Assembly: GCF_000330705.1 (NCBI RefSeq)
Contig: NZ_ANAM01000008.1
Span: 248,001-312,000, forward strand
Origin: Salinicoccus carnicancri Crm
GTDB taxonomy: Bacteria > Bacillota > Bacilli > Staphylococcales > Salinicoccaceae
Reading direction: 5' to 3'
Length of the DNA: 64,000 nt
This document shows positions 742 to 27,210 of the stretch, in pieces (position 1 is the first letter of the stretch; every line of letters starts with the position of its first letter). A program made the translations under genes and the position numbers. Below the pieces are notes generated by a model. The model was given only the letters and a program-made list of their open reading frames with translations, had not been told where the DNA came from and searched no databases.

Positions 742-2682
742 CTACATACTCCTTCTGACCACTTTTCTGTAATTCAGGAGCGACAGGACACCGAACAGGG
801 AGTACAGAATGATGTATCCACCCATCACTGTGAGCATAGGTGTCCACATAGCTGTCCCGAACAGGAACCAGCCCGCCTTGACTGCAAAATATGTGTGGAG
901 CAGACCGATCAGCAGCGGTATGCCAAATGTGATGATCATCTTGATGGAGAGTCCTTTCATGATTTCCTTTTCGGAAAAGCCAAGCTTTCTCAGAATGCTG
1001 TAGCTCTCCTTCTCATCCTCACTTTCACCAATCTGCTTGAAATAGAGTATGCATCCTGATGTGAGAAGGAAAGCAAATCCGACGAATCCAATGATGAACA
1101 TCATCATGCCTGTCGTCTGCATCAGATTCGTATACTGGCTGATTTTTGACTCAAACCCAGGATGCTCCTCTATGTCCATCATGTTATAGATTTCCATGCT
1201 GTCCTCCCCTGTGATTTCAAGTCCATACATCGCTTCTGGTTTTGGGTATTCCTCATCAGGAGTGTAACGGGATTCCATCTCTTCATAGACTGCCTCATCC
1301 ACTATCACTGTCGGCATGCCGAAGGATATGAATGAGGGAAGAACCGCCCCGGACTCAATCTTCCCCAATTCAAGTGTGTGTTCATAATCCCCGCTGTGAA
1401 ACGTGAGCGGCTGTCCTGTTTCAAATGATACAACCGAGTCAAGGTACGACTGTACACCGGTGACCACCGTCTGGTTCTCACCCACATCAACTTCATCGAC
1501 GCTTTCATCACTGACCACATTCAACTTCATGTCCCGCTGACCGGTATGCCCCGCCTGATCACGGTCGATATCGACGGCTCCCTCATCTTTTACTTCATAC
1601 TCGATCAGAGGCCTTTCGACGATTTCGTATCCGACCCCCTCTTCCTGAAGCATCTCTTCGGAGTAGTGCAGCCCCTCCTCATCATAGAAAATATAATCCT
1701 CGGGTATTTGGGACTCCACAGTCTTATCCACTGAATAGTAGCTGATGTAGGACAGGGACATGAGACCCATACTGAGCGCACTTACCACACTGATCAATGT
1801 CAGCAGGAATGCATTGGATTTCATCTTGAACATGATGCTTGTCAGTGACAGTACGTCATTCACATTGACATGGCCGCCCTTTGACTTTCTGATCATATTG
1901 AAGATAAAGGCGACTGAAAATTTGAAGGTGATGTATGTCCCGATTATCGTCAGAAACAGGATGCCAAACAGAAGCGGCACGATGATCATGCCAAAATCAA
2001 AGATCTTAGCGGAAAGCCAGTAGCCGGATATGATCATCAGCAGTCCAATGATACCGAAGGCCATGGTTCCAACACCAAGTTTCTTGCGCCCCGACTCACT
2101 CGTACGATCCAAATTGAGCATCTTGATCAGTCTCGTCCTTTTCAGGAAGACGAAGTTCTGTATCATGAGGAGTGCGAAAATGACGATATACAGCACCGCC
2201 GTCTGAAGAACGGCATCGATTGAAAAGCTCAAACCGACCGGCAGATCTATCTGCATTGCCCGAAGCAGTATCATCAGCAGCATCCTTGATACAAGGAAAC
2301 CGAATCCTATGCCGAGTATCAGGCTGCCGAAGTAGATCATCGCATTTTCCAGCAGTAATATCCTGAAGACTCTATTTCCGCTCAGGCCGATCAGCTGGAA
2401 CAATGCGAGTTCCCTGTTGCGTCTTTTCAGGAAGATGGCGTTCGCAAACATGACAAAAGCGACGATGATGAATACCAAAAGGACCGAACCGACCAGGAAC
2501 CCCGTCGACATCATTGTTCCGGAGGAAATCTCTTTCTGTGCACTTTCATCCTTTGACATCAGCACGAACGAGAAGTACAGTGCGACACTGAACACGAGAG
2601 CAAAGATGTACAGTATATAGTTGCTCATATTCTTAAAAAAGTTTTTCAGAATGATGCTGTTAAGATTCAACGCCGACACCAC
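742..2682 (-). CDS. BceB/VraG-type ABC transporter permease
   Basis: This 646-residue permease has the layout of peptide-antibiotic transporters of the BceB family. There is a first membrane helix near residues 20-42, an FtsX-like group of three helices up to about 180, more helices around 205-315, and a large extracytoplasmic domain at about 320-520. Three further helices near 530-645 complete it. The big acidic outer domain is where family members bind the bacitracin- or lantibiotic-bound lipid target. The start is GTG at 2682, overlapping the ATPase gene by 23 bases. A TTG at 2670, preceded by GGGTGGTG, is an equally good start. Partners are the ATPase just upstream and the two-component system beyond it. 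Known homologues both sense and detoxify; the exact drug is unknown. Confidence 0.88.
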
Positions 2683-3418
2683 CCAGCACGCTCTGTGTAT
2701 TCATGATTTCCTTGTAGAAGTATTCCTGGGAACTTTCTCCGCGTCGGAGAGTCGAGTACACAAGACCGTCTTTCAGGAAAATCACCCGGCCGGAATAGCT
2801 TGCGGCTGTGGCATCATGCGTAACCATCATGATTGTGGAGTTGCTCAGTTCATTCAGAGTCTGCAGTTTCCCAAGCAGATTGCTCGCCGCCTTTGAATCC
2901 AGGGCGCCTGTCGGCTCATCTGCAAAAATGATCTTGGGTTGATGGATGAATGCCCGTGCAGCACTGGTACGCTGCATCTGTCCGCCTGAAATTGCATCCG
3001 GATATTTGTCCTGAATATCGAATATACCGAGTTCATTCGCGACAAGTTCAAACTGTTTTTCAACTTCCGGCTTTTTCATGTTCCTTATGGAAAGCGGAAG
3101 AAGTATGTTCTCTTTGACCGTCAGCGTATTGAGCAGATTATACTCCTGGAATATGAAGCCGAGGTCGTTCTTCCTGAAATTGGCGAGCTTCTTATCTTTC
3201 AGCCCGGTAATATCCTGATCTTCTATGATGATGTGACCGCTGGTCACCCGGTCGATGGAGCTGAGCACATTCAGCAGCGTGGTCTTTCCGGAGCCTGATG
3301 CCCCCATTATCGAGACAAACTCCCCTTTTTCTATGCTCATGTCGATCCCTTTTAATACCTCAGTCCTGTTGAGTCTGTTTCCATATGTTTTTTTAATATC
3401 TTTTGCTTCGAGAATCAT
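2660..3418 (-). CDS. BceA/VraF-type ABC transporter ATP-binding protein
   Basis: A 252-residue ABC ATPase of the MacB/LolD-like group that pairs with BceB permeases. Walker A reads GASGSGKTT near residue 40, the signature is SGGQMQR and Walker B is [13 protein letters not shown]. The signature is followed by TSAARAF, where most relatives have V-A-I-ARA, a mild departure. The gene starts at an ATG with GGAGGG upstream and its 3' end overlaps the permease start, so the two are translationally coupled. The ATPase powers the permease at the inner face of the membrane. Confidence 0.9.
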
Positions 3419-3507
3419 GACGATCCCTCCGTCTCTAATTTGTTTCTATGTTATATAATAGGACCCGGATCCAAAAGTTTCGTTTGATTCTCATTACATA
3501 AATACAA
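3419..3507 (-). promoter_or_regulatory. Probable promoter and operator region of the ABC transporter pair
   Basis: This 89-base gap lies between the kinase terminator and the ATPase start. On the minus strand it has an AT-rich TATTATATAAC stretch that could hold the -10 box, next to a near-palindrome GGATCCGGGTCC. In BceRS-type systems the response regulator activates exactly this position. I could not find a clear -35 box or a match to the known BceR repeat. Confidence 0.3.
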
Positions 3508-3537
3508 AACCATGTGACACTTTTGTCACATGGTTGA
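3505..3537 (-). terminator. Terminator at end of the histidine kinase gene
   Basis: A 12-bp perfect stem (3508-3519 and 3524-3535) with a 4-base loop spans the kinase stop codon. On the minus strand it is followed by TTTTGTATTT. It separates the regulator transcript from the ABC transporter genes, which would then need their own promoter in 3419-3507. Confidence 0.7.
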
Positions 3538-4527
3538 AACATGCTGGAACCTGTTCTTTTTAGGCAATGTCACAGTGACTGTAGTACCCACGCCGTAAGC
3601 AGATTCGACATGCAGTCTGATGTCCATCGCGCGCGCCGCTTCCCGGGCAAGATATAACCCCATCCCCGTGGCCTGGCTGTCTCCGTGATCGCTTGTGGAT
3701 GTGAATCCTGCGTCAAAGATCCTCGGCAGGTCCTGTCCACTTATACCCCTGCCCCTGTCTTTTATCACGAGCACCGGCCATTCTTCATCCATAAAGCTCT
3801 CAATATCGATATCACTGTTCTCCGAATACTTAACACTGTTCATAATGCATTGATCGATGATGAATGAAAACCATTTGAGGTCCGTCTCCATATGAGCTTG
3901 ACGAAGATCGAGATTGAAACCGATCCCTTTTTCCATGCACAGTGCCCGGAGTTTCCGCAGGGCGGCCGTTATGACCTGCTCCACCTCGACTTTTTCGATA
4001 TACAGATCATTGCTGATGTTTGACAGCCTCCTGTCGTAGAGCATTTCATTCAGCATTGAATCAAGGCGCAGCCATTCCTCTTCAAGCCCCTGCCTTTTGG
4101 AGTCTTTCAGATCGCCGATCATAAGCTTCATTGTGGTCATCGGCATTTTCATATCGTGGATCCACTTCGTCATCTCATCCAGGTTCTCACTCGTCTTCAT
4201 GGATTCCCTCTCAAGAAGTTCATTGTGGTTTTTCAGGAACTTTTTCATTTTACCATCGACCATCTTCTCGTACGGGGTCTCAGGTGGCGGGAGAGTGTCA
4301 ATGTCACTGATTCTCTCCAGGCTTTTGAATTCCTTCCTGTATTTTCTGCCTTTGTAATAATCGACGCCCAAAAAGATCAAAAAGATGACGAGGTTGACGA
4401 CAACAATATATATCAATGATATACCCGGTATTTCCGTATCCAGCAGACCGAGTATGAGAATCGACAGACTCAGGAGACAGAACACCAGTATCCACGGCAT
4501 TTTCTGTTTGATATAGATGAGAATCAC
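3526..4527 (-). CDS. Intramembrane-sensing histidine kinase (BceS/GraS type)
   Basis: The kinase has 333 residues with two membrane helices close together near residues 11-30 and 35-55 and almost no outer loop, the hallmark of intramembrane-sensing kinases that are switched on by their ABC transporter. The phospho-acceptor is H124 in WIHDMKMP, the BceS-type H-box. N, G1 and G2 boxes follow as NSVKYS, DRGRGIS and GMGLYL. It overlaps the response regulator gene by 4 bases. Known relatives (BceS, GraS, BraS) respond to bacitracin, nisin or cationic peptides through transport flux, not by direct ligand binding. Confidence 0.9.
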   Translation of the reverse strand: MILIYIKQKMPWILVFCLLSLSILILGLLDTEIPGISLIYIVVVNLVIFLIFLGVDYYKGRKYRKEFKSLERISDIDTLPPPETPYEKMVDGKMKKFLKNHNELLERESMKTSENLDEMTKWIHDMKMPMTTMKLMIGDLKDSKRQGLEEEWLRLDSMLNEMLYDRRLSNISNDLYIEKVEVEQVITAALRKLRALCMEKGIGFNLDLRQAHMETDLKWFSFIIDQCIMNSVKYSENSDIDIESFMDEEWPVLVIKDRGRGISGQDLPRIFDAGFTSTSDHGDSQATGMGLYLAREAARAMDIRLHVESAYGVGTTVTVTLPKKNRFQHVSTM

Positions 4528-5201
4528 TCCCTGATCATATAGCCCAGTCCAGTTTTGGTGATGATTGCATCCGCAAGCCCCATGTCTTCGAGTTTTTTCC
4601 GGATCCTGTTAACATTCACTGTAAGCGTATTGTCACTTATGAATTTAGAATCATCCCACAGCTGCTCAATGATGGACTCACGCGCCACGACCTGTCCCGG
4701 GCTCTTCATAAGTATGGAAAGGATGAAAGATTCGTTTTTGGTCAGGCTCACATGCTCATCTTCCTTTGAAATTGTCAATTTCCTGAAGTCGAACAGAGCA
4801 TCCCTGAATTTCACGACATCCATGTCTTGATTCTGATACTGATATACCCGTCTCAGCAGCGCCTGGACTTTCGCCACCAGCACATCAAAATTGAATGGCT
4901 TCTGTATATAGTCATCACTGCCCATCTGCATGCTCATGACCATATCTGTCGGATGATCCCTGGAAGACAGAAAGATTATGGGCAGGCTGGAAATGTCCCT
5001 GATCCGCCGGCACCAGTAGAAGCCGTCATATTTAGGGAGGGTGATGTCTATGATCACAAGATCCGGCTCCCCTTTGATGAAATCATTCATAACATTTGAG
5101 AAATCGGTGACGCCGAATACACTGTAATCCCACTCCGCAAGCCTCTTTTCCAGCTGCCTGAACAGGCTCTCATCATCTTCTATTATGAAAATTCCAGACA
5201 T
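4524..5201 (-). CDS. OmpR-family response regulator (BceR/GraR type)
   Basis: I place the start at 5201 (MSGIFIIEDDE), which has a GGTAGGGAT ribosome site and gives 225 residues; a longer frame to 5267 has no family match. The receiver domain has acidic residues EDD near position 9, phospho-acceptor D52 and conserved K101. A winged-helix DNA-binding domain with TLTVNVNRIRKKL fills the C-terminal half. It is the first gene of the pair with the kinase (4-base overlap). Expected target is the promoter of the downstream ABC transporter genes. Orthologues are BceR, GraR or BraR; which one is not decided by sequence alone. Confidence 0.9.
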   Translation of the reverse strand: MSGIFIIEDDESLFRQLEKRLAEWDYSVFGVTDFSNVMNDFIKGEPDLVIIDITLPKYDGFYWCRRIRDISSLPIIFLSSRDHPTDMVMSMQMGSDDYIQKPFNFDVLVAKVQALLRRVYQYQNQDMDVVKFRDALFDFRKLTISKEDEHVSLTKNESFILSILMKSPGQVVARESIIEQLWDDSKFISDNTLTVNVNRIRKKLEDMGLADAIITKTGLGYMIRE

Positions 5202-5246
5202 GTAATCCCTACCCATCCGACAATTAAAATAAAAATATCCAGTTCC

Positions 5247-5252
5247 ATTATA
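5247..5252 (-). promoter_or_regulatory. Candidate -10 box of the response regulator gene
   Basis: A perfect TATAAT on the minus strand lies 46 bases before the response regulator start, in the 86-base gap after the phenylalanine dehydrogenase gene. The hexamer 17 bases upstream (GATACA) matches the -35 consensus poorly, so this may be an activated or weak promoter. Confidence 0.4.
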
Positions 5253-5287
5253 TATGAAACCGGACATTTTGTATCGTGAAGCAATGT

Positions 5288-6436
5288 CTAATTGTCAAAA
5301 TCCCATTTTGGCCGCCCCTCTGCAGAAAACATGCTGTCCATCTTCCGTCTGAGTTCAAGTTTCTGTTCACACATCTCATCTGCCGCCCTGAAAGTACCGA
5401 TGTTTCTCTCTTTCGAAATGTCGAAAATCCGTTCAAGCGAGTGGCCGATGTTCCTGGTCTTGGTCATCACACGGTCCGGATTCGCCCCGTACAGTTCGTC
5501 CGCCACCTGGATTAGACCGCCACTGTTGACGATATAATCCGGCGCATACAATATACCGCGTTCATGGACCACCTCACCATGAGCATCAGATGCCAGAACG
5601 TTGTTTGCACTGCCGACGATGGCCTGCATCCTGAAGTCTTTGAGCGTTTCATCATTGATGACACCACCGATGGCACATGGGACGAATACATCAGCATCCA
5701 CCGTGTATATATCTTCCAGCGGAACGAATTCAACTTCACCGTCAAGAGCATCCGCACGGTCTGCAATTGCCTTCACTGAATCACCGCTGATATCCGCGGC
5801 AAATATCTTTGCTCCACGTGCGAGCAGGTGCTCTGCAACTTTGAAACCGACTTTTCCGAGCCCCTGGACGGCATAAGTTCTTGAAGCAATGTCACGGGTC
5901 CCATAGAGTTCTTTATTCGCCGCTTCAATGCCGTATATTACACCCAGTGCAGTCGGTTCGCTTGAGTCTCCGCCACCGTGGAATTCTGGGGGTTTTCCGG
6001 CAATCTGCCTGGTTTCTTTGAGTGCATGGGTGAAGTCTCCGATTTCTGTTCCCATATCCGTTCCGGTATAGAATCTTTTATGGAGGGAATCCACCATCTG
6101 CCCGTAGGCTCTGAACAGTTCCGGTTTCCTGTCTGTTTTCGGATTGCCGATGATCACCCCTTTGCCGCCGCCGAAGTCCACATCCGCACCGATGCACTTG
6201 TAGGTCATCCCCCTGGAAAGCTTCAGTGAATCGTCCAGTGCTTCATCAAATGAATTGTACATCTGCATGCGCGTGCCGCCGAGCGCCGGTCCAAAAGTCG
6301 TATCGTGGATGGAAATGATCGCCCTGAGTCCCACTTCAGGACGGTTACAGATCAGCACCTGCTCGTGACCTGCAATCCTCTCCATGATTTCAAAATCTCC
6401 CATTGTTTCCATTTTCTCAATATCTCTGATCCCCAT
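5288..6436 (-). CDS. Phenylalanine dehydrogenase (Glu/Leu/Phe/Val dehydrogenase family)
   Basis: NAD-dependent oxidative deamination of an amino acid to its 2-oxo acid. The 382-residue protein, counted from the ATG at 6436 with GAGGGG ahead, has substrate-binding K80 (MTYK), catalytic K92 (GGGK), catalytic D127 (TGTDMGT) and dinucleotide motif GLGKVG at 192-197. The residues that separate phenylalanine from leucine dehydrogenases favour phenylalanine: G125 in YTGTD and L308 in NSGGLIQ. These correspond to Gly124 and Leu307 of the Lysinibacillus sphaericus enzyme, where leucine dehydrogenase has Ala and Val. The C-terminal PKWDF also resembles bacterial phenylalanine dehydrogenases. It is the last gene of the E1alpha-E1beta-E2 operon, 5 bases after E2. 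Automatic pipelines would probably call it leucine dehydrogenase. Confidence 0.8.
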   Translation of the reverse strand: MGIRDIEKMETMGDFEIMERIAGHEQVLICNRPEVGLRAIISIHDTTFGPALGGTRMQMYNSFDEALDDSLKLSRGMTYKCIGADVDFGGGKGVIIGNPKTDRKPELFRAYGQMVDSLHKRFYTGTDMGTEIGDFTHALKETRQIAGKPPEFHGGGDSSEPTALGVIYGIEAANKELYGTRDIASRTYAVQGLGKVGFKVAEHLLARGAKIFAADISGDSVKAIADRADALDGEVEFVPLEDIYTVDADVFVPCAIGGVINDETLKDFRMQAIVGSANNVLASDAHGEVVHERGILYAPDYIVNSGGLIQVADELYGANPDRVMTKTRNIGHSLERIFDISKERNIGTFRAADEMCEQKLELRRKMDSMFSAEGRPKWDFDN

Positions 6437-6441
6437 TGTAG

Positions 6442-7692
6442 TCACCCCTCGAATAATATGGTTTCAGGATCTGCCAGAAACACCTTCAAATCTTCGATTA
6501 TTTGTGTGGCATGCGCGCCGTCAATGATCCTGTGATCAAATGTGAAGGACAGTTTCATCATCGGTCTCACTTCTATTTCTTTCTCCCCGTTCACAACCGC
6601 TTCATCCTGTATACGGCCAAGCCCGAGAATTGCAGCTTCCGGGTAATTGAGCAGAGGTGTCATATGGACACCCGATGAACTCATGGAGCCTGTGTTGGTC
6701 ACTGTGACGGAGCCGTATTCCATATCATATGAGGTCAGTTTCCTGTCCCGCGCCCTGTCAGCCATATCGGTAATTCCATCTGCGATTTCCAGCAGATTCA
6801 ACCGGTTTGCATGCTTGATATTAGGTACGATCAGACCCGAAGGTGCATCGATGGCAACGCCTATGTTGCAAAACTCCTTGATCCGCAGACTTCCGCCCCC
6901 GTCATCGATTTCGGAATTAAGCGCCGGGTGCCGCTTCAACAGGGAAGCCATCGCCAAAACTGCATAAGCCGTATATGTCAGCCTGATGCCCCGATCAGCA
7001 GCCTGCCCTTTGAAACGGTCCCTGTGCGCGATGAGACGCCGGGCATCGACGGCATCGAAAACAGTCACCTGTGGCGCCTTTGTTACGCTGTCGAGAAGAG
7101 CGTTCGAAATCGCTTTTCTCATCGGAGGAAGTAATTCATGCCTGTAGGAAAATTCTTCTCCGGACAAAGCTCCCTGTCTATCCGCATCAGTGTCGGAAGA
7201 ATCTATGTGGCGGTCGATATCCTCTTTGGTTATTCTCCCCTTCCTTCCCGTGCCTTCCACCTGTGTCAGGTCGGCCCCTTTTGTTTTCGCATATTTTCTG
7301 ACACTCGGCACTGCAAGCATCCTGATATCCACGCCGTCAACAATGAATTTCTTATTCACCAGAGGTGCGCCGCCTCTTTCCTCCCCGGACGGTCCAGTGC
7401 TGTTTTCAGCCATTTTTTCGGCTGATTCCTGCACCGGTTCCTCCCGGTTTTCTCCCGATCCGTCATCGATGGTCACAAGCACCTCCCCGACTTTGGCAAT
7501 ACCGCTTTTTATCTTTATATCTTCAACGATTCCAGTGACCGGTGATGTGATTTCCACAACCGATTTATCGTTCTGGATTTCAAGCAGCGGCTCATCTTCC
7601 TTCACATGGTCTCCCACTGATTTGAGCCAGCCTGTAATATCACTCTCAGTCAGCCCTTCCCCTATATCGGGCAGTCTGAATTCATACCCCAT
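6442..7692 (-). CDS. 2-oxo acid dehydrogenase E2, dihydrolipoyl acyltransferase
   Basis: The E2 core subunit moves an acyl group from E1 to CoA. From the start at 7692 (SD AGGAAGGGG, ATG at position 3 of the longer frame) it has 416 residues. There is one lipoyl domain with lipoylated K43 in [10 protein letters not shown], then a Glu/Ser/Pro-rich linker and a peripheral subunit-binding domain starting at VPSVRKYAK. The C-terminal catalytic domain ends with the active-site DHRIIDG. A single lipoyl domain is usual for Gram-positive complexes. No E3 gene follows; dihydrolipoamide dehydrogenase must come from elsewhere. Acyl specificity cannot be read from the sequence. Confidence 0.9.
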
Positions 7693-7706
7693 TTTCATAC
7701 CCCTTC

Positions 7707-8675
7707 CTAAAACTCCAGAGTTTCCCTGATTGTCTCTTCAATTTTCACGCTGTCCGGTATCCATATATTCTCGGCAGCCCCGAAAGCGAAAGTCGTATCC
7801 GGAGGTGTAACACGTTTTGGAGGTGACTCCAGATACATGAAGCAGTGCTCGGCAATCTCTCCTGACAGATTCCCCATCACACCGGATGACCGCTGCGCTT
7901 CCTGTACCACCACCACATTGCCGGTCTTTTTGACGGACTTTTCTATCGTATCCATGTCAATCGGTGAAATGGTGCGCAGATCGATAATCTCGACCGAAGC
8001 ATCACTTTTTTCTGCAGCCAAAACCGCCTCATGCACCATCTGGCCGTATGCCACGACAGTCACTTCATCGCCGGCACGAACGATATTCGCTTTATCGAGC
8101 GGCACAGTATATTTTTCTTTTGGGACCTCCTCTTTAACAGAACGGTAAAGCTTCAGATGCTCGAGGAATAGGACCGGGTCGTCAGATTCGATTGATGATA
8201 TCAAAAGACCTTTGGCATCATACGGAGAGCTTGGCACCACCACCCTTATCCCGGGTGCCTGTGTAACCATGCCCTCAAAACTGTCTGAATGCAGCTCTGG
8301 TGTGTGTACGCCGCCCCCGAACGGTGCCCGGATCGTAATCGGGAGATTCTTCGTACCGCCGGTGCGGTACCTGTATCTCGACATCTGTCCGGCAATCGAG
8401 TCCATCGCCTCCAGTACGAAGCCGAAAAACTGCAGTTCGGGGACCGGTCTGAACTTGTTTTCCGCAAGTCCGATGGACATGCCCAGAATCCCGCTTTCAG
8501 CAAGTGGTGTATCAAATACACGATTTTCACCAAATTTATCCTGCAGGCCGTCGGTCACTCTGAACACTCCGCCATTTTTACCGATATCCTCTCCAAAAAC
8601 CAGTGTGTCTCCATCTTCCTGGAGCTTTATGGCAAGAGCTTCATTCAGTGCCTGTACAATGGTTAGCTGTCTCAT
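7707..8675 (-). CDS. 2-oxo acid dehydrogenase E1 beta subunit
   Basis: A 322-residue transketolase-like subunit with the [12 protein letters not shown] motif near the N-terminus, the PDAKGLL-type region at about 150 and the conserved VVVQEAQR near 260. Its overall pattern is closer to pyruvate dehydrogenase E1 beta than to standard branched-chain subunits. It overlaps E1alpha by 4 bases (ATGA), so the two chains are made together. With E1alpha it decarboxylates a 2-oxo acid using thiamine diphosphate. Confidence 0.9.
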
Positions 8676-9769
8676 GAATGTTTCCTCCCCGCATATCCTT
8701 CCTGCTGCCTTTTGTAGAATCCGGGTTTCACACTATACATATTATCGATGAAGTCATCCACAGTCTGTCCGGGTGTCTTCCTGACTTTTTCAAGAGCTTC
8801 TTTAATTTCAAGGCGGACCTGTTCTTCTGTCTGCGACTCGATCCTGTCATCCCAGAGTCCCTTTTTCTGCAGGAATTTCCTCATCCGTATCAGCTGATCC
8901 TTCTTCTCCCAGGCCGTCAGTTCCTCATCATCACGGTAGCGGGTCGGATCATCACTCATGGTATGCGGTCCGTATCTGTATGTGAGGGTCTCGATCAATA
9001 CCGGCCCCCGCCCCTCTGTTGCATATTTCCTTGCAAATTTCACAGCGCTTAAGACCGCCAGCGGGTCCATGCCGTCCACCTGGATGCCGAATACTCCGGC
9101 GGCAGCCGCCTTCTGAACGAGGGTGGCCGCCCGCGTCTGCACTTCGCGCGGAGTGGATATTCCGAAACCGTTGTTCTGGACGATGAAAATGGCTTTTGCA
9201 TCAAAACTTCCCGCCATGTTCAATCCTTCGTAAAAGTCGCCCTGTGAAGAGCCCCCATCCCCTATATATGTAAGGACCACACGGTTTTCCTTTCTCAACT
9301 TGAAAGACAACCCAAGCCCCGCCGCCTGTACGATCTGGGCACCGATTATGACCTGGGGCGGCATGGCATTCAAGCCTTCGGGAAACAGATTGCCCTCCAC
9401 ATGCCCCTTATACCAGAGGAAAGCCTTATGAAGCGGCAGACCGTGCATCACGAGGGGTGGGATGTCCCGGTATGTCGGCAGCAGATAATCCTCCGGTTCA
9501 AGAGCAAACTGGCTCGCAAGCTGACTTGCCTCCTGTCCGCCGCTCGGAGCGTAATTTCCGAGTACTCCCTGCCTGTTCAGATTGGTCACCCGTGTATCAT
9601 ATATCCTGCCCCAGATCATCCGCTTCATAAGTTCGACAAGTTCGTCATCACTAATATCGGGGTACAGGGTGTCATCGATGATTTCCCCTTCCTCATCGAT
9701 GATGCGGAGAACCGGGTAAAGTTTTCCGATTCCTTCAAACTGCGCCTCTGCATCAAAAGGATTCAACAT
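8672..9769 (-). CDS. 2-oxo acid dehydrogenase E1 alpha subunit
   Basis: First gene of a four-gene operon. The 365-residue protein carries the thiamine diphosphate motif from GDG (170-172) to NN (199-200) and the YAPSGGQEASQ segment of E1 alpha chains. It looks like a paralogue of the housekeeping PdhA, whose genes usually come with pdhD; here no E3 gene is present and an amino acid dehydrogenase takes the last place. That context suggests the substrate is a 2-oxo acid from amino acid breakdown. A strong GGGGGAG ribosome site precedes the ATG, and a perfect cre lies 18 bases further upstream. Confidence 0.9.
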   Translation of the reverse strand: MLNPFDAEAQFEGIGKLYPVLRIIDEEGEIIDDTLYPDISDDELVELMKRMIWGRIYDTRVTNLNRQGVLGNYAPSGGQEASQLASQFALEPEDYLLPTYRDIPPLVMHGLPLHKAFLWYKGHVEGNLFPEGLNAMPPQVIIGAQIVQAAGLGLSFKLRKENRVVLTYIGDGGSSQGDFYEGLNMAGSFDAKAIFIVQNNGFGISTPREVQTRAATLVQKAAAAGVFGIQVDGMDPLAVLSAVKFARKYATEGRGPVLIETLTYRYGPHTMSDDPTRYRDDEELTAWEKKDQLIRMRKFLQKKGLWDDRIESQTEEQVRLEIKEALEKVRKTPGQTVDDFIDNMYSVKPGFYKRQQEGYAGRKHS

Positions 9770-9786: not shown

Positions 9787-9804
9787 TTTGTAAACGCTTA
9801 CAAA
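9787..9804. promoter_or_regulatory. CcpA operator (cre) of the 2-oxo acid/phenylalanine dehydrogenase operon
   Basis: TGTAAACGCTTACA at 9789-9802 fits the cre consensus without mismatch and is a perfect palindrome when TT and AA are added on each side. It lies just downstream of a TATAAT box and before the ribosome site, a position where bound CcpA would block transcription. CcpA itself is encoded at 40363-41352. Confidence 0.85.
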
Positions 9805-9807
9805 GTT

Positions 9808-9813
9808 ATTATA
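9808..9813 (-). promoter_or_regulatory. -10 box of the 2-oxo acid dehydrogenase operon
   Basis: A perfect TATAAT on the minus strand lies 39 bases upstream of the E1 alpha start. A weak TTTCAA sits 17 bases further upstream as the possible -35 box. The cre begins 4 bases after this box, so it overlaps the expected transcription start. Confidence 0.6.
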
Positions 9814-9883
9814 ACATCTTCCTGAAATATTTGAAATGTTTGTTATATTAACGATGAAAAAGACCTATCCGACCTATAATCTT

Positions 9884-18557: not shown

Positions 18558-18591
18558 TAAAGAAGCTATGAAAATTTTCATAGCTTCTTTA
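18558..18591. terminator. Bidirectional terminator, 34-base perfect palindrome
   Basis: Arms 18558-18574 and 18575-18591 are perfect complements without a spacer, so the tip would open into a short loop of about four bases. A-runs and T-runs allow action on both strands. It ends the NRDE gene and reaches into the last codons of the convergent nitronate-monooxygenase-like gene. Confidence 0.85.
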
Positions 18592-19522
18592 CATTGGAGA
18601 GGCTGTCATTAAATTCCGCCCTGAATGCACTGAACAGTTCCGCAACACCGGGCAACTCATCAATCAGGCCGGAAATCTGCCCGCCGTTAATGAACCCGTT
18701 TTGCATATCCCCTTCCATTGCACCGAGCAGATGCTTTTCCTCATCTGTATTTTCTTTGTATGTTTCAAGCGTAATGCCGCGCTCTTCTTCTTTCCGGAGA
18801 CTCTCGGAATACCCGTTTCTGATCAGCCTTCTGCATCTGCCGACCGATCTCCCGTATATTTTTGTCGACGATTCATCCGCTTCGATTATCTTTGCCTTAT
18901 AGTGATCGTGGGCAGGATGTTCCCTGGTAGCAATCAGCCGGGTGCCGAGCTGCACCAGATCTGCCCCCAGCGCCATTGCGGCAAGCATTCCCCTCCCATC
19001 CCCGATGCCGCCGGCAGCAATAAGCGGCTTGTCGATGACCTTTTTCACCTGTGGTATGAGCGTCATCGTCGTGGCTTCGGTGGAAGCATTTATCCCTGCC
19101 GCTTCGTACCCCTCGCATGTGATGATGTCCACGTCCATGCCCGCCACTTTATTCGCCTGGGAAACGGTGCCGACAATAACATTGACTTTCATGCCAAGCG
19201 CCCTGATCTCTGGTATGTAGGGGGCCGGATTTCCTGCCGAAAGAGTGATGACATCCATATTATACCGGGCGGCCAGCCTGATCATATCCGCCGGGGCGGC
19301 ATTGACAGAGATGGGAATATTGACTGCGAGGGCGCGGTCAGTCAGTCTTCTCGCTTCTTTCAACTGCTTTTTTGCTTCATCGGGGGCGAGCGTTCCGCAG
19401 CTGACTGTTCCAAGCCCGCCCTGTTCTGAAATGAGCGCAGCAAAACACCCTGTCGGTATATTCCCCATGCCGCCCTGCACAAGGGGAATACTGAGTCCGA
19501 GCGCATCCATGATTTTCATCAT
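18578..19522 (-). CDS. Nitronate monooxygenase-like FMN protein (NPD family), end of paa cluster
   Basis: A TIM-barrel FMN flavoprotein of the 2-nitropropane dioxygenase/FabK family, 314 residues from 19522, where GGAGGA precedes the ATG. FMN-binding segments QGGMG near residue 18, AAGGIGDGRG and GADLVQLGTR are present. In true nitronate monooxygenases and FabK the motif is EAGGH; here it reads EAAGINAST, so the catalytic His is replaced and the protein belongs to another subgroup. It overlaps the paaX stop region and is probably co-transcribed with it. Its role in phenylacetate or enoyl-CoA metabolism is a guess from position. Confidence 0.75.
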   Translation of the reverse strand: MMKIMDALGLSIPLVQGGMGNIPTGCFAALISEQGGLGTVSCGTLAPDEAKKQLKEARRLTDRALAVNIPISVNAAPADMIRLAARYNMDVITLSAGNPAPYIPEIRALGMKVNVIVGTVSQANKVAGMDVDIITCEGYEAAGINASTEATTMTLIPQVKKVIDKPLIAAGGIGDGRGMLAAMALGADLVQLGTRLIATREHPAHDHYKAKIIEADESSTKIYGRSVGRCRRLIRNGYSESLRKEEERGITLETYKENTDEEKHLLGAMEGDMQNGFINGGQISGLIDELPGVAELFSAFRAEFNDSLSNVKKL

Positions 19523-19524
19523 AC

Positions 19525-20406
19525 TCATTCCTCCGCTTCAAGATATGAATCCGTCGGTACACCGGCATCCGGTAACAAGGGGTCATATGCATTATCCGCT
19601 TTGAACACACCCTCGAAAAATTCAATGGCGCCTCTGCCGAGGAGCTGGTAATAGTCGCTGAACAGCTGTCCGGCATGATGTCCAAGCCATCTGCCGGGAA
19701 GCAGTTCCGCTGGGAAGCCGGGATCAATGAATAAAAATTTTCTGTATTCATGTGTCAGCATGACCCTTTTTATGAAACATTCGGCGTCAGTCAGCCTTCC
19801 TTGTGCAATCAGCTGTCTGTCCAGCACGTAATCCCTGCTGTACTTTTCAAAGAAGCTTTCATACTTTTCATTTATTTCTTCAATATTCCAGCCCCTCTGA
19901 ATCAGACGGGAATTTTCGCCCACTGTATATTCAGCAGAAAAGACATCAATCTTATCCCCCAGGTCATATTTTACAGTCAGCCTCTCCATGGTTTCATGAA
20001 GAGGGTTCGGTGTGATATAGACATTCGTGGAAAGTTGTCCGAAACCATGCCATTCCAGTTCCCTGATGAATGCCTGCCTGTGCTTCGCATCATCGAACCT
20101 GTTCTGGAGCACCACCATCAGCCAGTGGCCGTCCCAACTCTCCTTGCGGATGTTGAAAATTCTTCCTGCAGCAGTGTTCAGACGGCTTTTCCCGGCTTCG
20201 GTCAATGTATAGAAACTCTTTTTGCCCTCTTTGTCAATCGACAGCCATCCCTGCTTTGACATACGGGAGAGGCTCATTCTCACCGACTGGGGATTGTGTT
20301 CGAATGCCCCGAGCAGCCTGATCAGGCTGCCCACCCATATCCGGTTGTTGTAATGGCGTATATAATCGCCGTATATAGTAAAAATCAAAGATTGCGTCTT
20401 TGCCAT
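19525..20406 (-). CDS. paaX: PaaX family transcriptional repressor
   Basis: A 293-residue regulator with the N-terminal winged helix of PaaX (SLIFTIYGDYIRHY and the recognition region QSVRMSLSRMSKQGWL) and the long C-terminal PaaX domain. In Escherichia coli PaaX binds phenylacetyl-CoA and then releases the paa promoters. The start at 20406 is preceded by AGAGGTAGG. It follows a hydratase gene by 20 bases, so the repressor is made from the operon it should control. Operator candidates are listed separately. Confidence 0.85.
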   Translation of the reverse strand: MAKTQSLIFTIYGDYIRHYNNRIWVGSLIRLLGAFEHNPQSVRMSLSRMSKQGWLSIDKEGKKSFYTLTEAGKSRLNTAAGRIFNIRKESWDGHWLMVVLQNRFDDAKHRQAFIRELEWHGFGQLSTNVYITPNPLHETMERLTVKYDLGDKIDVFSAEYTVGENSRLIQRGWNIEEINEKYESFFEKYSRDYVLDRQLIAQGRLTDAECFIKRVMLTHEYRKFLFIDPGFPAELLPGRWLGHHAGQLFSDYYQLLGRGAIEFFEGVFKADNAYDPLLPDAGVPTDSYLEAEE

Positions 20407-20426
20407 GATCCTACCTCTTATCCTTT

Positions 20427-21203
20427 TCATTCATCCCTGAAGACTGGTTTCCTCTTTTCACTGAAACTGTTCAACGCTTCCATTCTGTCGTATGTTTTGA
20501 GTGTTTTCAAATAATGCAGGCGCTCAACCTCCACGCCTTCCGAAACACTGTGTTCCATACTGTCGTTGATGGCGCGTTTTGCTGCATGAAGCGCCACTTT
20601 GGGTTGTGCCAGCAGAATGTCCACCAGATTCTCGACGGCTGCATCCAAATCGTCCGCCTTTACCATTCTATAGATGATACCATATTTTTCAGCTTCGGCT
20701 GCAGAGATTTTTTCAGACAGCAGTATCATCTCCCTGGCTTTATTCACACCGGCGAGCGCGGCAAGCCTTTGAGTTCCGCCTCCACCCGGTATGATACCCC
20801 ATCCTACTTCTGTAAGACCGAGTTCCGCACTTTCAGCGGCAATTGCAAAATCACAGGCCAGGATCAGCTCCATTCCGCCGCCAAAAGCGAGACCGTCAAC
20901 TTTGCAGATTGTGACAGGGTCAAGCCGGCCGATCTTATCAAAAACGGAACTGATGAGCTTGACATTCCTCATTGTTCTATTCTCATCGAGTCCAAGTCGT
21001 TCTTTCAGATCCGCTCCACTGGAGAATGCCTTTTTTCCTGCAGCCGTAAAAAGAACAACTTTCACACCATCGCTATTCATTATTTCCTCAATAATCTGCT
21101 CAAGTTCCCTGAGCATTCCATAATTGAATGCATTGAAGTATCTCTCCCTGTTGAAATGGATGCGGTATACATCCCCCTCCTGTCGGCTATCGATGTATTC
21201 CAT
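20427..21203 (-). CDS. Enoyl-CoA hydratase (PaaF-like)
   Basis: A crotonase-fold enzyme of about 258 residues. Both catalytic glutamates of classical hydratases are present: one in GGGMELILACD, one in LTEVGWGIIPGGGG. In the phenylacetate route such an enzyme hydrates 2,3-dehydroadipyl-CoA (PaaF role). A longer form starting at 21239 would overlap the preceding gene by 20 bases; the ATG at 21203 has AAGGGGGG 10 bases upstream. It might instead do the ring-opening hydrolysis, since two hydratases are present and no fused PaaZ. Confidence 0.8.
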   Translation of the reverse strand: MEYIDSRQEGDVYRIHFNRERYFNAFNYGMLRELEQIIEEIMNSDGVKVVLFTAAGKKAFSSGADLKERLGLDENRTMRNVKLISSVFDKIGRLDPVTICKVDGLAFGGGMELILACDFAIAAESAELGLTEVGWGIIPGGGGTQRLAALAGVNKAREMILLSEKISAAEAEKYGIIYRMVKADDLDAAVENLVDILLAQPKVALHAAKRAINDSMEHSVSEGVEVERLHYLKTLKTYDRMEALNSFSEKRKPVFRDE

Positions 21204-21219
21204 CCGTCTCAGGCCCCCC

Positions 21220-22077
21220 TTAACATTCACTGTAATCATATACTCCTCTTCCGGATTTTTTACCCAGCCGCCCCGCGTTCACATATTTTTCAAGAAGCGG
21301 AGCCGGCCGGAACCTTTCTCCGAGTTTACTGTGAAGTTCTTTCATATTATTCAGCCGGGCATCCAGTCCGACAAGATCCACCAGTTCAAACGGGCCCATG
21401 GGATGGTTCAGCCCGAAGCGGACCGCTTTGTCAATATCCGCAGGCGTACCCAGTCCCTCCTGGAGCATATGGAAGGCTTCATTCCCTATGAGGCAGCTCA
21501 TACGTGAAGTCACAAAACCGGGGAATTCATTGATCACTACTGTCTCCTTCCCCATTTTTTTGGCAACTGCCTCCACTTCGGTTACAGTGGCGTCCGACGT
21601 CTCAAGCCCTCTCACTATTTCTACCAGCGGCATCCTGTGCACCGGATTGAAGAAATGCATTGCTATCGAATTTTCAGGTCTGTTGCCGTAGGAGGCAATT
21701 TCCGTCGGACTCATCGTACTTGTGTTTGAAGCGAAAATCGTGTGGCTCATTGCCTTTTCTGAAACAGCTTCATGAACCGCGCGCTTGATTACGGCGACTT
21801 CCGGAACCGCTTCGATGACAAGATCGCACTCCTTGATTGCTTCTTCATAGGAAACAGAAACCTCCAGTCTGCCGAGTGCATTTTCTCTGTCGGTCATACT
21901 TATTTTGTGCCGGCCAACGCCCTTATCAAAAAGTTCTTTTATATCCCTGTAACTTTTATCCACCATCTTTTCATCAACATCCATAATGACTGTATCAAAA
22001 CCGGCAAGAGAAGAAGCATATGCGATCCCTTTACCCATCACGCCGGCGCCGATGACTGTTATTTTATTGGTCTGCAA
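21220..22077 (-). CDS. 3-hydroxyacyl-CoA dehydrogenase (PaaH/Hbd type)
   Basis: A 285-residue NAD-dependent enzyme with GAGVMGKGIA at the N-terminus and the catalytic His region MHFFNPVHRMPLVEIV around 140. The C-terminal dimer domain ends with GKKSGRGVYDY. In the paa route it would oxidise 3-hydroxyadipyl-CoA to 3-oxoadipyl-CoA. The start is TTG at 22077, 8 bases after CCGGAGGTG. The next step, the thiolase PaaJ, is not encoded in the window. Confidence 0.85.
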   Translation of the reverse strand: MQTNKITVIGAGVMGKGIAYASSLAGFDTVIMDVDEKMVDKSYRDIKELFDKGVGRHKISMTDRENALGRLEVSVSYEEAIKECDLVIEAVPEVAVIKRAVHEAVSEKAMSHTIFASNTSTMSPTEIASYGNRPENSIAMHFFNPVHRMPLVEIVRGLETSDATVTEVEAVAKKMGKETVVINEFPGFVTSRMSCLIGNEAFHMLQEGLGTPADIDKAVRFGLNHPMGPFELVDLVGLDARLNNMKELHSKLGERFRPAPLLEKYVNAGRLGKKSGRGVYDYSEC

Positions 22078-22135: not shown

Positions 22136-23641
22136 CTACAGCATGAAAGGATTGATTGGTTTCCTGCCGAAATACGACATGATGCTTTTAGTTTCACTGT
22201 ACAGATCAAGAGTCTCTGCAGAAAGTTCCCTGCCGAATCCGGATTGTTTGTATCCTCCGAACGGAGTTCCGGGGAATGCGGAAAATGGACAGTTGATCAT
22301 GACGATGCCAGCTCTGATCTTATCGGCCACACGTTTTGCCTTCCTGGTGTCTTCTGTATATATGCTTGATGCCAGGCCATAGATTGTATTGTTTGCCAGA
22401 CTGACGGCCTCTTTTTCATCACTGAAGCGTGAGATGACGACCACCGGACCGAATATCTCATCCCGGACCACTGTCATGTCTTCTGTAACATCAGTGATGA
22501 TTGTCGGTTCGAGCCAAAACCCGCCTTCATAACCTTCAATGCTCAGACGGTTGCCGCCGTATGCGATAGTTGCCCCTTCCTGCCTCGCGGTTTCTATATA
22601 TGCTTCAACCGATTCCAGCTGACTTTTATCAATCAGGCTGCCCATGTGCGTTTCTTTACTCATGGGATCACCCATCTTCATCTGCTTCGTCTTTTCAACG
22701 AATTGTTCGACGAACTTATCATAAATCCTGTCTTCCACATATATTCGGCTTCTCGCATCACATGACTGGCCCGTGTTGTTATATATGCCGTAAACGGACG
22801 AAGCCACTGCATTCTCAAGCTCTGCATCACCGAAAATGAGCGCCGGAGATTTTCCGCCGAGCTCCAGTGTCAGACGCTTCAGTGTCCGGCTTGCTTTAGA
22901 CATGATGTCTTTGCCTGTATCCGTCGATCCGGTAAAGGCCACTTTATCTACCTCGGGATGCTCGACGAGATAGTCACCAACCCTGCTGCCGCTTCCCGGC
23001 AGTATATTTATCACACCGTCCGGGACACCTGCCTCCTGACAGATTTCCCCCAGAATCAATGCAGTCAGCGGTGTCAATGATGCAGGTTTTAAAACAACAG
23101 TGCATCCTGCAGCGAGTGCAGGTGCAACTTTCCATGCAGCCATCATCAGCGGGTAGTTCCATGGTACAATCTGTGCACAAACACCGACCGGTTCTTTTTC
23201 GGTATAGTTATGAAACTGGCCGGGCACATCATTCGTTTGACCACCGTGATTACAGACGGCACCCGCATAATATTCGAAATCCTCAACAGCCTGGTTGATC
23301 TGTCCGGTGGCAGCATTGATTGATTTGCCCGAGTTCAAGACTTCGAGCTCGACAAGTTCTTTGAACCTTTCCCGCATGATTGAAGCAATCCTGTTCAGGA
23401 TCTTTGCCCGTTTGGATGCCGGGTAGATTTTCCATTTGCTGTTCTCAAAAGCATCCCTCGCCGCCATCACAGCACGTTCTGCATCCTCCCCTGTCGCCAT
23501 GGCGACTTTGGCTATGACTTCACCCGTTGCCGGATTGATGATATCATTCGTGCCGCCATCGCTGCTCTCCACCTTTTCACCATTGATGAAAAGTTCATAG
23601 AATTCTCTCCTGATGCCGTTTTGCACCTTCACTTCCGTCAT
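22136..23641 (-). CDS. Aldehyde dehydrogenase, stand-alone counterpart of the PaaZ dehydrogenase domain
   Basis: A 501-residue NAD(P)-dependent aldehyde dehydrogenase with PWNYP near 165, FTGSTDTGK around 240, LELGGKSPA around 265 and catalytic Cys in NNTGQSCDARSR around 300. It lacks the C-terminal MaoC hydratase domain of PaaZ. In bacteria without PaaZ, a separate dehydrogenase oxidises the ring-cleavage product 3-oxo-5,6-dehydrosuberyl-CoA semialdehyde, and position in the operon supports that role. Phenylacetaldehyde or betaine aldehyde as substrate cannot be excluded by motifs. A GGAGG ribosome site precedes the ATG. Confidence 0.78.
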   Translation of the reverse strand: MTEVKVQNGIRREFYELFINGEKVESSDGGTNDIINPATGEVIAKVAMATGEDAERAVMAARDAFENSKWKIYPASKRAKILNRIASIMRERFKELVELEVLNSGKSINAATGQINQAVEDFEYYAGAVCNHGGQTNDVPGQFHNYTEKEPVGVCAQIVPWNYPLMMAAWKVAPALAAGCTVVLKPASLTPLTALILGEICQEAGVPDGVINILPGSGSRVGDYLVEHPEVDKVAFTGSTDTGKDIMSKASRTLKRLTLELGGKSPALIFGDAELENAVASSVYGIYNNTGQSCDARSRIYVEDRIYDKFVEQFVEKTKQMKMGDPMSKETHMGSLIDKSQLESVEAYIETARQEGATIAYGGNRLSIEGYEGGFWLEPTIITDVTEDMTVVRDEIFGPVVVISRFSDEKEAVSLANNTIYGLASSIYTEDTRKAKRVADKIRAGIVMINCPFSAFPGTPFGGYKQSGFGRELSAETLDLYSETKSIMSYFGRKPINPFML

Positions 23642-23653
23642 TTAAGTATCCTC

Positions 23654-24427
23654 CTATTTCCCTTTGAATTCCGCTTTTCTTTTTTCCCTGAACGCCATCA
23701 TGCCCTCACGATGATCTTCAGTCAGACCGCTTACTCTCTGGTATTCACTTTCAATATCCATGAATTCCGGAAGCGTCGAATCCGCTGCCCGTTTTGTCAG
23801 CTGTTTGATCAGTCCGATTGCAATGGATGGCTTTCCAAGGAGGCGGCCGATTCTCTTCCGGGTTTCTGTATCAAAAATGTCCTTTGCAAAAACATCATCG
23901 ACCAGCCCGAGGTCCAGTGATTCACCGGCGCCCATCCTGGGTGAGAACATGGAAATTTCCAGGGCTTTCTGCTGTCCGGCCAATTTTGTGAGATAAAAGA
24001 TATGTCCGCTGTCCGGAACCAGACCGACGTTGATGAACGCACTTGTCATCATTGCATCATCGCTCATCCATCTCATATCGCACGCCAGTGCAATGCTCAT
24101 ACCCGCACCTGCTGCTATTCCATTAACTTTGGCCACGATCAGCTTCTCAGATGTATCTATTGCCTGCACCAGCGGTGCATAGAACAATCTGATCACTTCT
24201 CCATGATTCATGCTGTCATCCACCCCGGCAAGGTCCTGCCCCGTTGAAAACGCCTTCCCTGTCCCTTCGAGGGTAATGACCCTGACATCCTCATCTTTCT
24301 CAAGCATTTCCAGAGCCTGCCTGGTTTCTTCCAGCATTTCATTATTGAAGGCATTATATTTATCCGGACGATTGAAAATAATCTGCCCCATGCCTGCTTC
24401 CTTATTTACAATGATGGTTTCATACAT
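23654..24427 (-). CDS. paaG: PaaG-type 1,2-epoxyphenylacetyl-CoA isomerase
   Basis: A crotonase-fold protein of 257 residues that lacks both hydratase glutamates. At the first site it reads AAGAGMSIALACD, and at the second INVGLVPDSG, with the Asp in PDSG matching the catalytic Asp of PaaG. PaaG turns the ring epoxide into oxepin-CoA and also shifts double bonds later in the pathway. It follows the upstream hydratase after 2 bases, with AGGGGGCGG ahead of the ATG. Confidence 0.82.
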   Translation of the reverse strand: MYETIIVNKEAGMGQIIFNRPDKYNAFNNEMLEETRQALEMLEKDEDVRVITLEGTGKAFSTGQDLAGVDDSMNHGEVIRLFYAPLVQAIDTSEKLIVAKVNGIAAGAGMSIALACDMRWMSDDAMMTSAFINVGLVPDSGHIFYLTKLAGQQKALEISMFSPRMGAGESLDLGLVDDVFAKDIFDTETRKRIGRLLGKPSIAIGLIKQLTKRAADSTLPEFMDIESEYQRVSGLTEDHREGMMAFREKRKAEFKGK

Positions 24428-25206: not shown

Positions 25207-25507
25207 CAGCATCTTCACCGACCATGAAGGTCACCGATTTTCCGGCAAGTGACATCGCATCTCTTGCAGATGCTCTGCCCTCATCAGATGAAAGGCCTTT
25301 CTCCAACTCATCCATATTGTCATAATACATTTCACAGATGATATAATATCTACTTGGATTCCCCATCGGATCCCTGTCATATTTGCTCACTCTGACTTCT
25401 TTCAGACCGGGTATTTTCTCAGTCAGCGGTATATGCTTTTCAAAGTAATGGGTATCGAACGCCTGCTTATCCTCCGGGTGTCCATACATAGCTACAACCT
25501 TCACCAT
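25199..25507 (-). CDS. EthD family small protein
   Basis: A 102-residue protein of the dimeric alpha/beta-barrel EthD family, with the N-terminal VVAMYGHPEDKQAF and HIPLTEKIPGL and a mid-section YYIICEMYYDN. EthD-like proteins help oxygenase systems or act on small cyclic compounds such as muconolactone analogues. It is set between paaD and a hydratase gene, 14 bases after paaD, and overlaps the next gene by a few bases, so it is a regular operon member. Function in phenylacetate degradation is not known. Confidence 0.8.
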   Translation of the reverse strand: MVKVVAMYGHPEDKQAFDTHYFEKHIPLTEKIPGLKEVRVSKYDRDPMGNPSRYYIICEMYYDNMDELEKGLSSDEGRASARDAMSLAGKSVTFMVGEDADG

Positions 25508-26025: not shown

Positions 26026-26035
26026 ATTCATTCAC

Positions 26036-27197: not shown

Positions 27198-27210
27198 GTA
27201 TTTATCCTCC

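Follow-up and report, generated by a model that had tools for sequence, protein, structure and literature searches.

The 64,000-nucleotide stretch of Salinicoccus carnicancri Crm DNA described here (contig NZ_ANAM01000008.1, positions 248,001 to 312,000; hereafter "the window") carries four genes that probably convert phenylalanine to phenylacetyl-CoA. They encode the E1α, E1β and E2 proteins of a 2-oxo acid dehydrogenase complex and an amino acid dehydrogenase of the phenylalanine dehydrogenase (PheDH) type. All four are on the minus strand, and the gene ends overlap or nearly touch (Table 1). A first-pass annotation made from the sequence alone had described these genes as tightly packed on one strand, and the open reading frames (ORFs) are found as it stated.

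A search of other genomes for the same gene order, which the annotation had called for, found it in Salinicoccus sediminis, where the same four genes follow each other with protein identities of 96% (E1α), 97% (E1β), 89% (E2) and 97% (dehydrogenase). A wider scan of the genomes of 84,980 species gave at least 559 confirmed PheDH-type relatives; the named loci discussed below are the best 80 of these, a choice that favours close relatives, and S. sediminis recurs as one of them (L062), counted among the 80 and omitted from the trees. In 66 of the 80 loci, genes for E1α, E1β and E2 lie within about 6 kb of the PheDH-type gene, all on the same strand. Because the order is conserved in S. sediminis and the association recurs across these loci, the arrangement is not due to chance.

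The four genes form one operon, bounded by a promoter-like site and a terminator-like hairpin, although sites resembling terminators are no more frequent in the region than in shuffled sequence. Catabolite-responsive elements (cre) follow a consensus that can be written as a 16-base pattern. A sequence that fits this pattern without mismatch, TTGTAAGCGTTTACAA, lies immediately past the promoter-like site and is the sole such place in the 64-kb window; when one mismatch is allowed, the pattern matches 15 times, where 6.6 matches would be expected. The TATAAT hexamer and the cre box are identical in S. sediminis, while the DNA farther upstream diverges. The box suggests control by CcpA, that is, catabolite repression, and such control would imply a catabolic role for the operon.

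The amino acid dehydrogenase

The dehydrogenase has Gly at position 125 and Leu at position 308, numbered as in the first-pass annotation from the ATG start (5288-6436). We take these to be the equivalents of the specificity positions G124 and L307 of the Lysinibacillus PheDH, whose counterparts in leucine dehydrogenase (LeuDH) are presumably A113 and V291. The annotation had read the two residues as a preference for phenylalanine and proposed a comparison with LeuDH loci. Alignment confirms the residues, and the LeuDHs differ at both positions, with Ala and Val in all 26 sequences compared (the LeuDH of the same genome and 25 others). Among 87 PheDH-type rows, position 308 is Leu in 79, Ile in seven and Val in one. 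Position 125 is Gly in all 87, which was partly imposed, since one of the two scan patterns contained that Gly. Lys80, Lys92 and Asp127 are retained in every row.

A FastTree phylogeny of 95 rows places the dehydrogenase among the PheDH-type sequences and apart from the LeuDHs (the split of the eight LeuDHs has support 1.0). It is 56.8% identical to the protein of the Bacillus badius NBRC 15713 locus, compared to 40.9% for the LeuDH of its own genome; the B. badius type strain is the source of a characterized PheDH. By its specificity residues and its place in the tree, the enzyme is assigned to the PheDH type.

The E1-E2 complex and its relation to pyruvate dehydrogenase

The E1 pair retains the equivalents of Tyr102α and His128β, the residues whose contacts at the thiamine diphosphate (ThDP) site of pyruvate dehydrogenase (PDH) have been described (PMC2663715), and the surroundings of His128 in E1β are PDH-like. 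When aligned with the E2 proteins of the genome's own PDH and branched-chain 2-oxo acid dehydrogenase (BKD), E2 has both the lipoyl-lysine motif (NDK) and the DHRxxDG motif. These domains and catalytic residues are those of a 2-oxo acid dehydrogenase complex, which the proteins would be expected to form. There is no E3 gene in the operon, as the first-pass annotation had also observed. Just two lipoamide dehydrogenases of the genome exceed the curated cut-off. They belong to the PDH and branched-chain clusters, and one of them presumably serves as E3 for this complex.

The complex seems to be derived from PDH. The structures closest to the E1 proteins are those of Geobacillus PDH, and the identity to the PDH of the same genome is 55% for E1α, 56% for E1β and 39% for E2, as compared to 32%, 45% and 30% for its BKD. 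E1β and E2 score below their PDH profile cut-offs.

The region around the cofactor has changed. The reference set for this comparison consisted of 29 PDHs, the genome's own and those of 28 loci from a scan of Bacilli, which are not a random sample, as they were chosen as closest to the target. Columns of E1α common to at least 92% of the 29 PDHs are substituted at 42 positions both here and in S. sediminis, with one column deleted. Some of the substitutions are shared with a PheDH-linked complex of Pontibacillus litoralis, and several are located near the cofactor, where Phe74, Gly101, Gln107 and Ser122 of PDH are not kept. Phe74, present in all 29 PDHs and in the genome's own BKD, is replaced by Asn72 here and by Asn in P. 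litoralis, while 65 of the 66 complexes of the type most often found beside PheDH genes (the common type, described below) have Thr. Gly101 (28 of 29 PDHs), which precedes the ThDP-contacting Tyr102, has become Thr99; P. litoralis also has Thr, and all 66 common-type complexes have Thr or Ser. Ser122 (29/29) corresponds to Tyr120 here, to Tyr in P. litoralis and to Trp in the common type, and Gln107 (29/29) corresponds to Pro105. The pocket of E1 is formed between its two chains, and the Phe74 column aligns with Phe66 of the Thermus E1, which we take to be a substrate-pocket residue.

A phenylacetyl-CoA degradation cluster in the same window

The first-pass annotation overlooked the wider context of the operon: a cluster for phenylacetyl-CoA degradation (paa) lies in the same window and on the same strand, at 18.6-28.2 kb (Table 1). 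An EthD protein (PF07110) follows PaaD in another of the loci (L063) too. A family that matches the same FabK model as the protein at the downstream end of the cluster turns up near PheDH-type genes in 54 of 84 loci (for example, at 4462-5430 of locus L074). At 28155-28140, a cre-like sequence with a single mismatch lies across the start of paaA.

Table 1. Genes and sites of the operon and of the paa cluster. Positions are those of the window.
Feature	Position	Strand	Basis
E1α subunit, PDH-derived; proposed phenylpyruvate-decarboxylating	8672-9769	-	ORF; TIGR03181, 426.1 bits vs. cut-off 411.35
E1β subunit	7707-8675	-	ORF; best PDB match 3duf_B (G. stearothermophilus PDH E1β); His128 kept
E2 dihydrolipoyl acyltransferase: lipoyl, E1/E3-binding and catalytic domain with DHRxxDG	6442-7698	-	ORF; E2 families, scores below curated cut-offs
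PheDH-type amino acid dehydrogenase (Gly125, Ala146, Leu308)	5288-6436 (ATG) or 5288-6445 (GTG)	-	ORF; alignment
Promoter-like site, TTCAAA - 16 - TATAAT, TG ahead of second hexamer	9808-9835	-	Consensus match
cre-type box, immediately 3' of TATAAT	9788-9803	-	16-base cre pattern, 0 mismatches
Terminator-like hairpin, 17 pairs, T-rich tail	5232-5270	-	Consensus match
PaaA, 1,2-phenylacetyl-CoA epoxidase subunit	27211-28155	-	TIGR02156, 449.5 bits, cut-off 280
PaaB	26862-27230	-	TIGR02157, 91.9 bits, cut-off 85.45
PaaC	26036-26857	-	TIGR02158, 227 bits, cut-off 133.35
PaaD	25522-26031	-	TIGR02159, 158.6 bits, cut-off 108.15
EthD-family protein	25199-25507	-	TIGR02118
Enoyl-CoA hydratase, PaaF-like	24430-25218	-	234.5 bits, below PaaF cut-off 371
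Enoyl-CoA isomerase, PaaG-like	23654-24427	-	Best family TIGR02280, 200.4 bits, below cut-off 345.15
Aldehyde dehydrogenase, perhaps a semialdehyde dehydrogenase acting in the ring-opening branch	22136-23641	-	Role from place; no displayed family above cut-off
3-Hydroxyacyl-CoA dehydrogenase, predicted PaaH-like role	21220-22077	-	
Enoyl-CoA hydratase family	20427-21239	-	
PaaX-type regulator	19525-20430	-	TIGR02277, 262.6 bits, about 2 bits under cut-off 264.55
FabK/nitronate-monooxygenase-like protein	18578-19528	-	FabK model match
Pyridine nucleotide-disulphide reductase beside paaA; possible epoxidase reductase partner	28335-29354	-	Pfam; role predicted
4HBT thioesterase, possible PaaI-like role	29549-29950	+	PF03061; role predicted

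The substrate of the epoxidase, phenylacetyl-CoA, is normally made by the ligase PaaK at the cost of ATP. When the genome, which is 99.98% complete, was searched with the PaaK profile (TIGR02155), nothing matched at E ≤ 0.001, and the result was the same in S. sediminis. Within the genus, the operon is present in two of 12 genomes (S. carnicancri Crm and S. sediminis), and PaaA scores above cut-off in the same two; a third Salinicoccus genome (G005) has only a 25-bit scrap of PaaA. The co-occurrence of operon and PaaA has a Fisher p of 0.015 among the 12 genomes of the genus and of 0.0026 among 28 genomes of the order.

Elsewhere in the genome are a PDH with its E3, a LeuDH with a branched-chain complex and its E3, a further E1-E2 pair and a 2-oxoglutarate dehydrogenase, so that the housekeeping roles are already filled. 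The further E1α-E1β-E2 set (locus L056, 8162-11433) has no adjacent E3 and lies beside sorbitol phosphotransferase system (PTS) genes. A cluster for 4-hydroxyphenylacetate degradation (hpa) is found on another contig (locus L176, 5192-11623), with HpaB, E, D, I and G and a LysR gene; HpaC is the name used for the flavin reductase genes. The 20-kb stretch around this hpa cluster has no set of PheDH, E1-E2 and FlK-type thioesterase, unlike in relatives: in three genomes of the family (G002, G009 and G013) the hpa cluster is accompanied by a similar PheDH-type dehydrogenase (54-56% identity to the target), a different E1-E2 and an FlK-type thioesterase.

Directly downstream of the operon, beyond the hairpin, the window carries genes for an FtsX-type permease, an ABC ATPase, a histidine kinase and a response regulator (742-5267), presumably akin to a peptide-antibiotic sensing module. 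A link to plasmids was considered and rejected: a DNA search of a plasmid collection gave seven records with 60-80% identity over at most 14% of the query, and those with annotation were PDH or alpha-keto acid dehydrogenase.

Distribution among the Bacillota

Many PheDH-type genes in the Bacillota have similar company. An E3 gene is present in 49 of the 80 loci, and in 54 an FlK-like gene lies within 1.5 kb upstream, a label that is based on one profile test (PF22636) and on similarity. A relative of PaaX, PaaA, PaaC or PaaD is found in the surrounding stretch in 57 loci. Among the 66 loci with the full E1α-E1β-E2 set, paa or hpa genes occur in 55 and neither occurs within the stretch in 11; a relative of 4-hydroxyphenylpyruvate dioxygenase (HPPD) is present in 12. 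The set is incomplete in the remaining 14 loci, seven of which are beside HPPD genes. Five Paenibacillus loci (L107, L114, L123, L134 and L137) have a PheDH-type gene with Ile308 and Ala146 next to HPPD-family genes, with no E1-E2 in the stretch, and at least one of the five also has a fumarylacetoacetase gene.

PaaA and PaaK were counted in 76 genomes, comprising the 28 of the order and 48 genomes of named loci. PaaA is above cut-off in 43 of these 48, of which 32 have a full-length PaaK (E below 1e-160) and 11 have none. Altogether, 13 of the 45 genomes with PaaA lack PaaK, S. carnicancri Crm among them.

Two E1-E2 lineages

The E1-E2 complex of the operon is distant from that of the common type, as represented by the three loci of the family: the identities are 36-38% for E1α, 49-50% for E1β and 31-33% for E2. 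A tree of E1α and E1β together with the 28 PDH loci joins the target to the P. litoralis complex that lies beside PheDH, with an SH-like approximate likelihood ratio test (SH-aLRT) of 100 and a bootstrap of 98. The same grouping was obtained in a smaller E1α plus E1β tree (100/94) and in a maximum-likelihood tree of E1β alone (99.8/79). In FastTree phylogenies, P. litoralis is sister to the target by E1α alone (0.992) and by E2 alone (0.937), but not by E1β alone, and long branches remain a risk in all of these E1 and E2 trees. A wider family of E1α proteins of the target type was also sought and set aside: among the matches listed from the scan of 398 Bacilli genomes, PDH E1α proteins were 52-58% identical and only S. 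sediminis was closer than 58%; the P. litoralis locus came from the other scan.

At the P. litoralis locus (L081, 4852-14186), the PDH-like E1-E2 genes are followed by genes for E3, PheDH, a PTS EIIC-type membrane protein, a phosphate acyltransferase and an acetate kinase family protein. The last two suggest that ATP is made from an aryl-CoA.

The trees thus point to two separate E1-E2 lineages that joined PheDH: the common one, and one derived from PDH in S. carnicancri Crm, S. sediminis and P. litoralis. Both PheDH-linked lineages lack the Phe74 that is kept in all 29 PDHs. The most parsimonious explanation is recruitment of a duplicated PDH to the function that the common complex also has.

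Residue 146 as a possible switch between phenylalanine and tyrosine

Asn145 of the Lysinibacillus enzyme, the equivalent of residue 146 here, lets PheDH accept tyrosine and discriminates between the two substrates. In the 87 PheDH-type rows this column has Val in 59, Ala in 14 (the target among them) and Asn in 14. At least one hpa gene is present in the stretch of 12 of the 14 Asn146 rows, as opposed to two of 72 Val or Ala rows (the target omitted; Fisher p 5e-11), and in both of these exceptions the gene is the first of two in tandem, the second having Asn. Since the Asn146 rows form only two clades on the tree, the association amounts to two events. Six of the Asn146 rows have paa genes in their stretch as well. 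Tandem PheDH-type genes, one with Val146 and one with Asn146, are found at three loci (L105, L127 and L085), and these could be natural phenylalanine/tyrosine pairs. The Ala146 of the target is consistent with phenylalanine as its substrate and with the paa cluster as its neighbor.

Proposed pathway and alternatives

In the proposed pathway, PheDH would use NAD+ to oxidize phenylalanine, giving phenylpyruvate and ammonium, and the PDH-derived E1-E2, with an E3 shared with the PDH or branched-chain cluster, would convert phenylpyruvate by oxidative decarboxylation to phenylacetyl-CoA with the production of a second NADH. Products of the epoxidase cluster, which lies some 9 kb from the operon, would then open the ring. 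Such a route would bypass both free phenylacetate and PaaK, a ligase that consumes ATP, and in the presence of glucose the operon would be shut off by CcpA acting at the cre box. The enzyme specificities, the use of a shared E3 and the regulation are all inferred from context and sequence. From this evidence we put the probability that the operon takes phenylalanine to phenylacetyl-CoA in two steps, feeding the nearby paa cluster without PaaK, at about 80%. The first-pass annotation had made the same proposal for the conversion, which gains support from the paa cluster, the absence of a PaaK match, the co-occurrence in the genus and the 55 of 80 Bacillota loci in which PheDH and E1-E2 lie beside paa or hpa genes.

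Several observations weigh against this pathway. The operon lacks an E3 gene and is separated from the paa cluster by about 9 kb of seemingly unrelated genes. No thiolase was recognized in the paa cluster, and a genome-wide thiolase search was not made. Phenylacetate could still be activated by an acyl-CoA ligase of some family other than PaaK, and of the 43 named genomes that have both PaaA and a PheDH-type gene, 32 retain PaaK. The co-occurrence of operon and PaaA may reflect a single joint gain, as the two Salinicoccus genomes are closely related. An FlK thioesterase was considered as a fifth part of the system and rejected, the sole match in the genome scoring 22.6 bits, below the cut-off of 27. 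In another E1α of the genome (C10), the Phe74 column and the Gly101 column are both occupied by Thr, so that the loss of Phe74 alone is no proof of an aryl substrate. Because E1α exceeds the cut-off of the curated PDH profile and the trees place E1 and E2 with the PDHs, pyruvate may also be used, and phenylpyruvate specificity is something that we infer.

This last point raises the question of whether the complex is a second PDH, or a general 2-oxo acid dehydrogenase, that stands beside PheDH by accident. The profile score of E1α, the identity of both E1 proteins to the genome's own PDH and the PDH-like surroundings of His128 all speak for it. However, that PDH is present elsewhere with its own E3, the 42 substituted columns include several in the cofactor region and some shared with P. 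litoralis, and a related PheDH arrangement exists in a second genus, all of which makes an accidental neighbor distinctly improbable. It is harder still to credit a second branched-chain system made from a LeuDH-like enzyme and a branched-chain E1-E2. The layout does resemble that of the genome's LeuDH/branched-chain cluster, and LeuDHs are the best PDB matches of the dehydrogenase (354 bits, with chains named phenylalanine dehydrogenase at about 168), but the enzyme has Gly125 and Leu308 in place of Ala and Val and clusters in the tree with the PheDH-type sequences, that of B. badius among them, while E1α and E2 are only 32% and 30% identical to those of a BKD whose cluster is already present elsewhere. 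An ordinary second PDH and a second branched-chain operon were both rejected on these grounds.

A different question is whether the complex also, or mainly, handles tyrosine. In that case, 4-hydroxyphenylpyruvate would be converted to 4-hydroxyphenylacetyl-CoA and released by a thioesterase into the hpa (homoprotocatechuate) pathway encoded on the other contig. The genome does have HpaB and an hpa cluster, three relatives combine such a cluster with the dehydrogenase, E1-E2 and an FlK-type thioesterase, and a 4HBT thioesterase adjoins the paa cluster. Against this, residue 146 is Ala, a residue that rarely goes with hpa genes; no FlK is above cut-off in the genome; and the neighbor of the operon, with which it also co-occurs within the genus, is paa and not hpa. 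A tyrosine pathway is therefore unlikely.

More broadly, and with less assurance than for the operon itself, it is probable that the breakdown of phenylalanine and tyrosine in aerobic Bacillota commonly proceeds by way of PheDH and an NAD-linked lipoyl arylpyruvate dehydrogenase. Such an enzyme would have arisen at least twice, in the common lineage and as a neofunctionalized PDH in Salinicoccus and Pontibacillus, and would feed paa for phenylalanine or, via an FlK-type thioesterase, hpa for tyrosine. Residue 146 would act as the switch between the two, PheDH would have its native role in this pathway, and PaaK could become dispensable.

PheDH enzymes are used in tests for phenylketonuria, and the operon offers a physiological role for the bacterial enzyme, in a route from phenylalanine to phenylacetyl-CoA that would spare the ATP used by PaaK. 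An additional specificity among 2-oxo acid dehydrogenases, with PDH as its origin, would show how E1 pockets change, and the residue 146 rule would predict phenylalanine or tyrosine catabolism from sequence.

Comparison with known systems

The conversion of arylpyruvates to arylacetyl-CoA is known from anaerobes, where it is carried out by HpdDEFG of Clostridium scatologenes and VOR of C. sporogenes (PMC13285125, PMC13290082). These enzymes are ferredoxin-linked and, unlike the operon, have neither a lipoyl E2 nor an NAD-linked E3. The first-pass annotation had named ferredoxin-dependent enzymes among the known routes, but it left out PglB/PglC from phenylglycine biosynthesis in Streptomyces pristinaespiralis, for which PMC7089894 and PMC10685826 propose a PDH-like phenylpyruvate dehydrogenase. 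PglB and PglC are PDH-like E1α and E1β proteins that are proposed to make phenylacetyl-CoA from phenylpyruvate and are encoded in an operon with a thioesterase. The likeness, which is one of description, ends there: the Pgl pathway makes an antibiotic precursor, uses an aminotransferase and not a PheDH, and has no E2 among the named genes of its operon, whereas the Salinicoccus operon appears to be catabolic, includes PheDH and E2 and lies near ring-degradation genes. In the literature on phenylalanine dehydrogenase and phenylpyruvate, no report of this operon was recognized, which is weak evidence, as subscription journals were mostly outside the search.

The LeuDH/branched-chain cluster is similar in that an amino acid dehydrogenase is clustered with an E1-E2 that makes an acyl-CoA, but it has the LeuDH residues, a BKD-type E1, its own E3, and genes for a phosphate acyltransferase and an acyl kinase. 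The classical paa catabolon shares PaaABCD, a PaaX-type regulator and the β-oxidation genes with the window. It differs in the source of phenylacetyl-CoA, which is proposed to come straight from phenylpyruvate in S. carnicancri, where the genome gave no PaaK match. The 2-oxo acid dehydrogenase complex is thus of a known kind, while its assembly with PheDH and its likely substrate are probably new.

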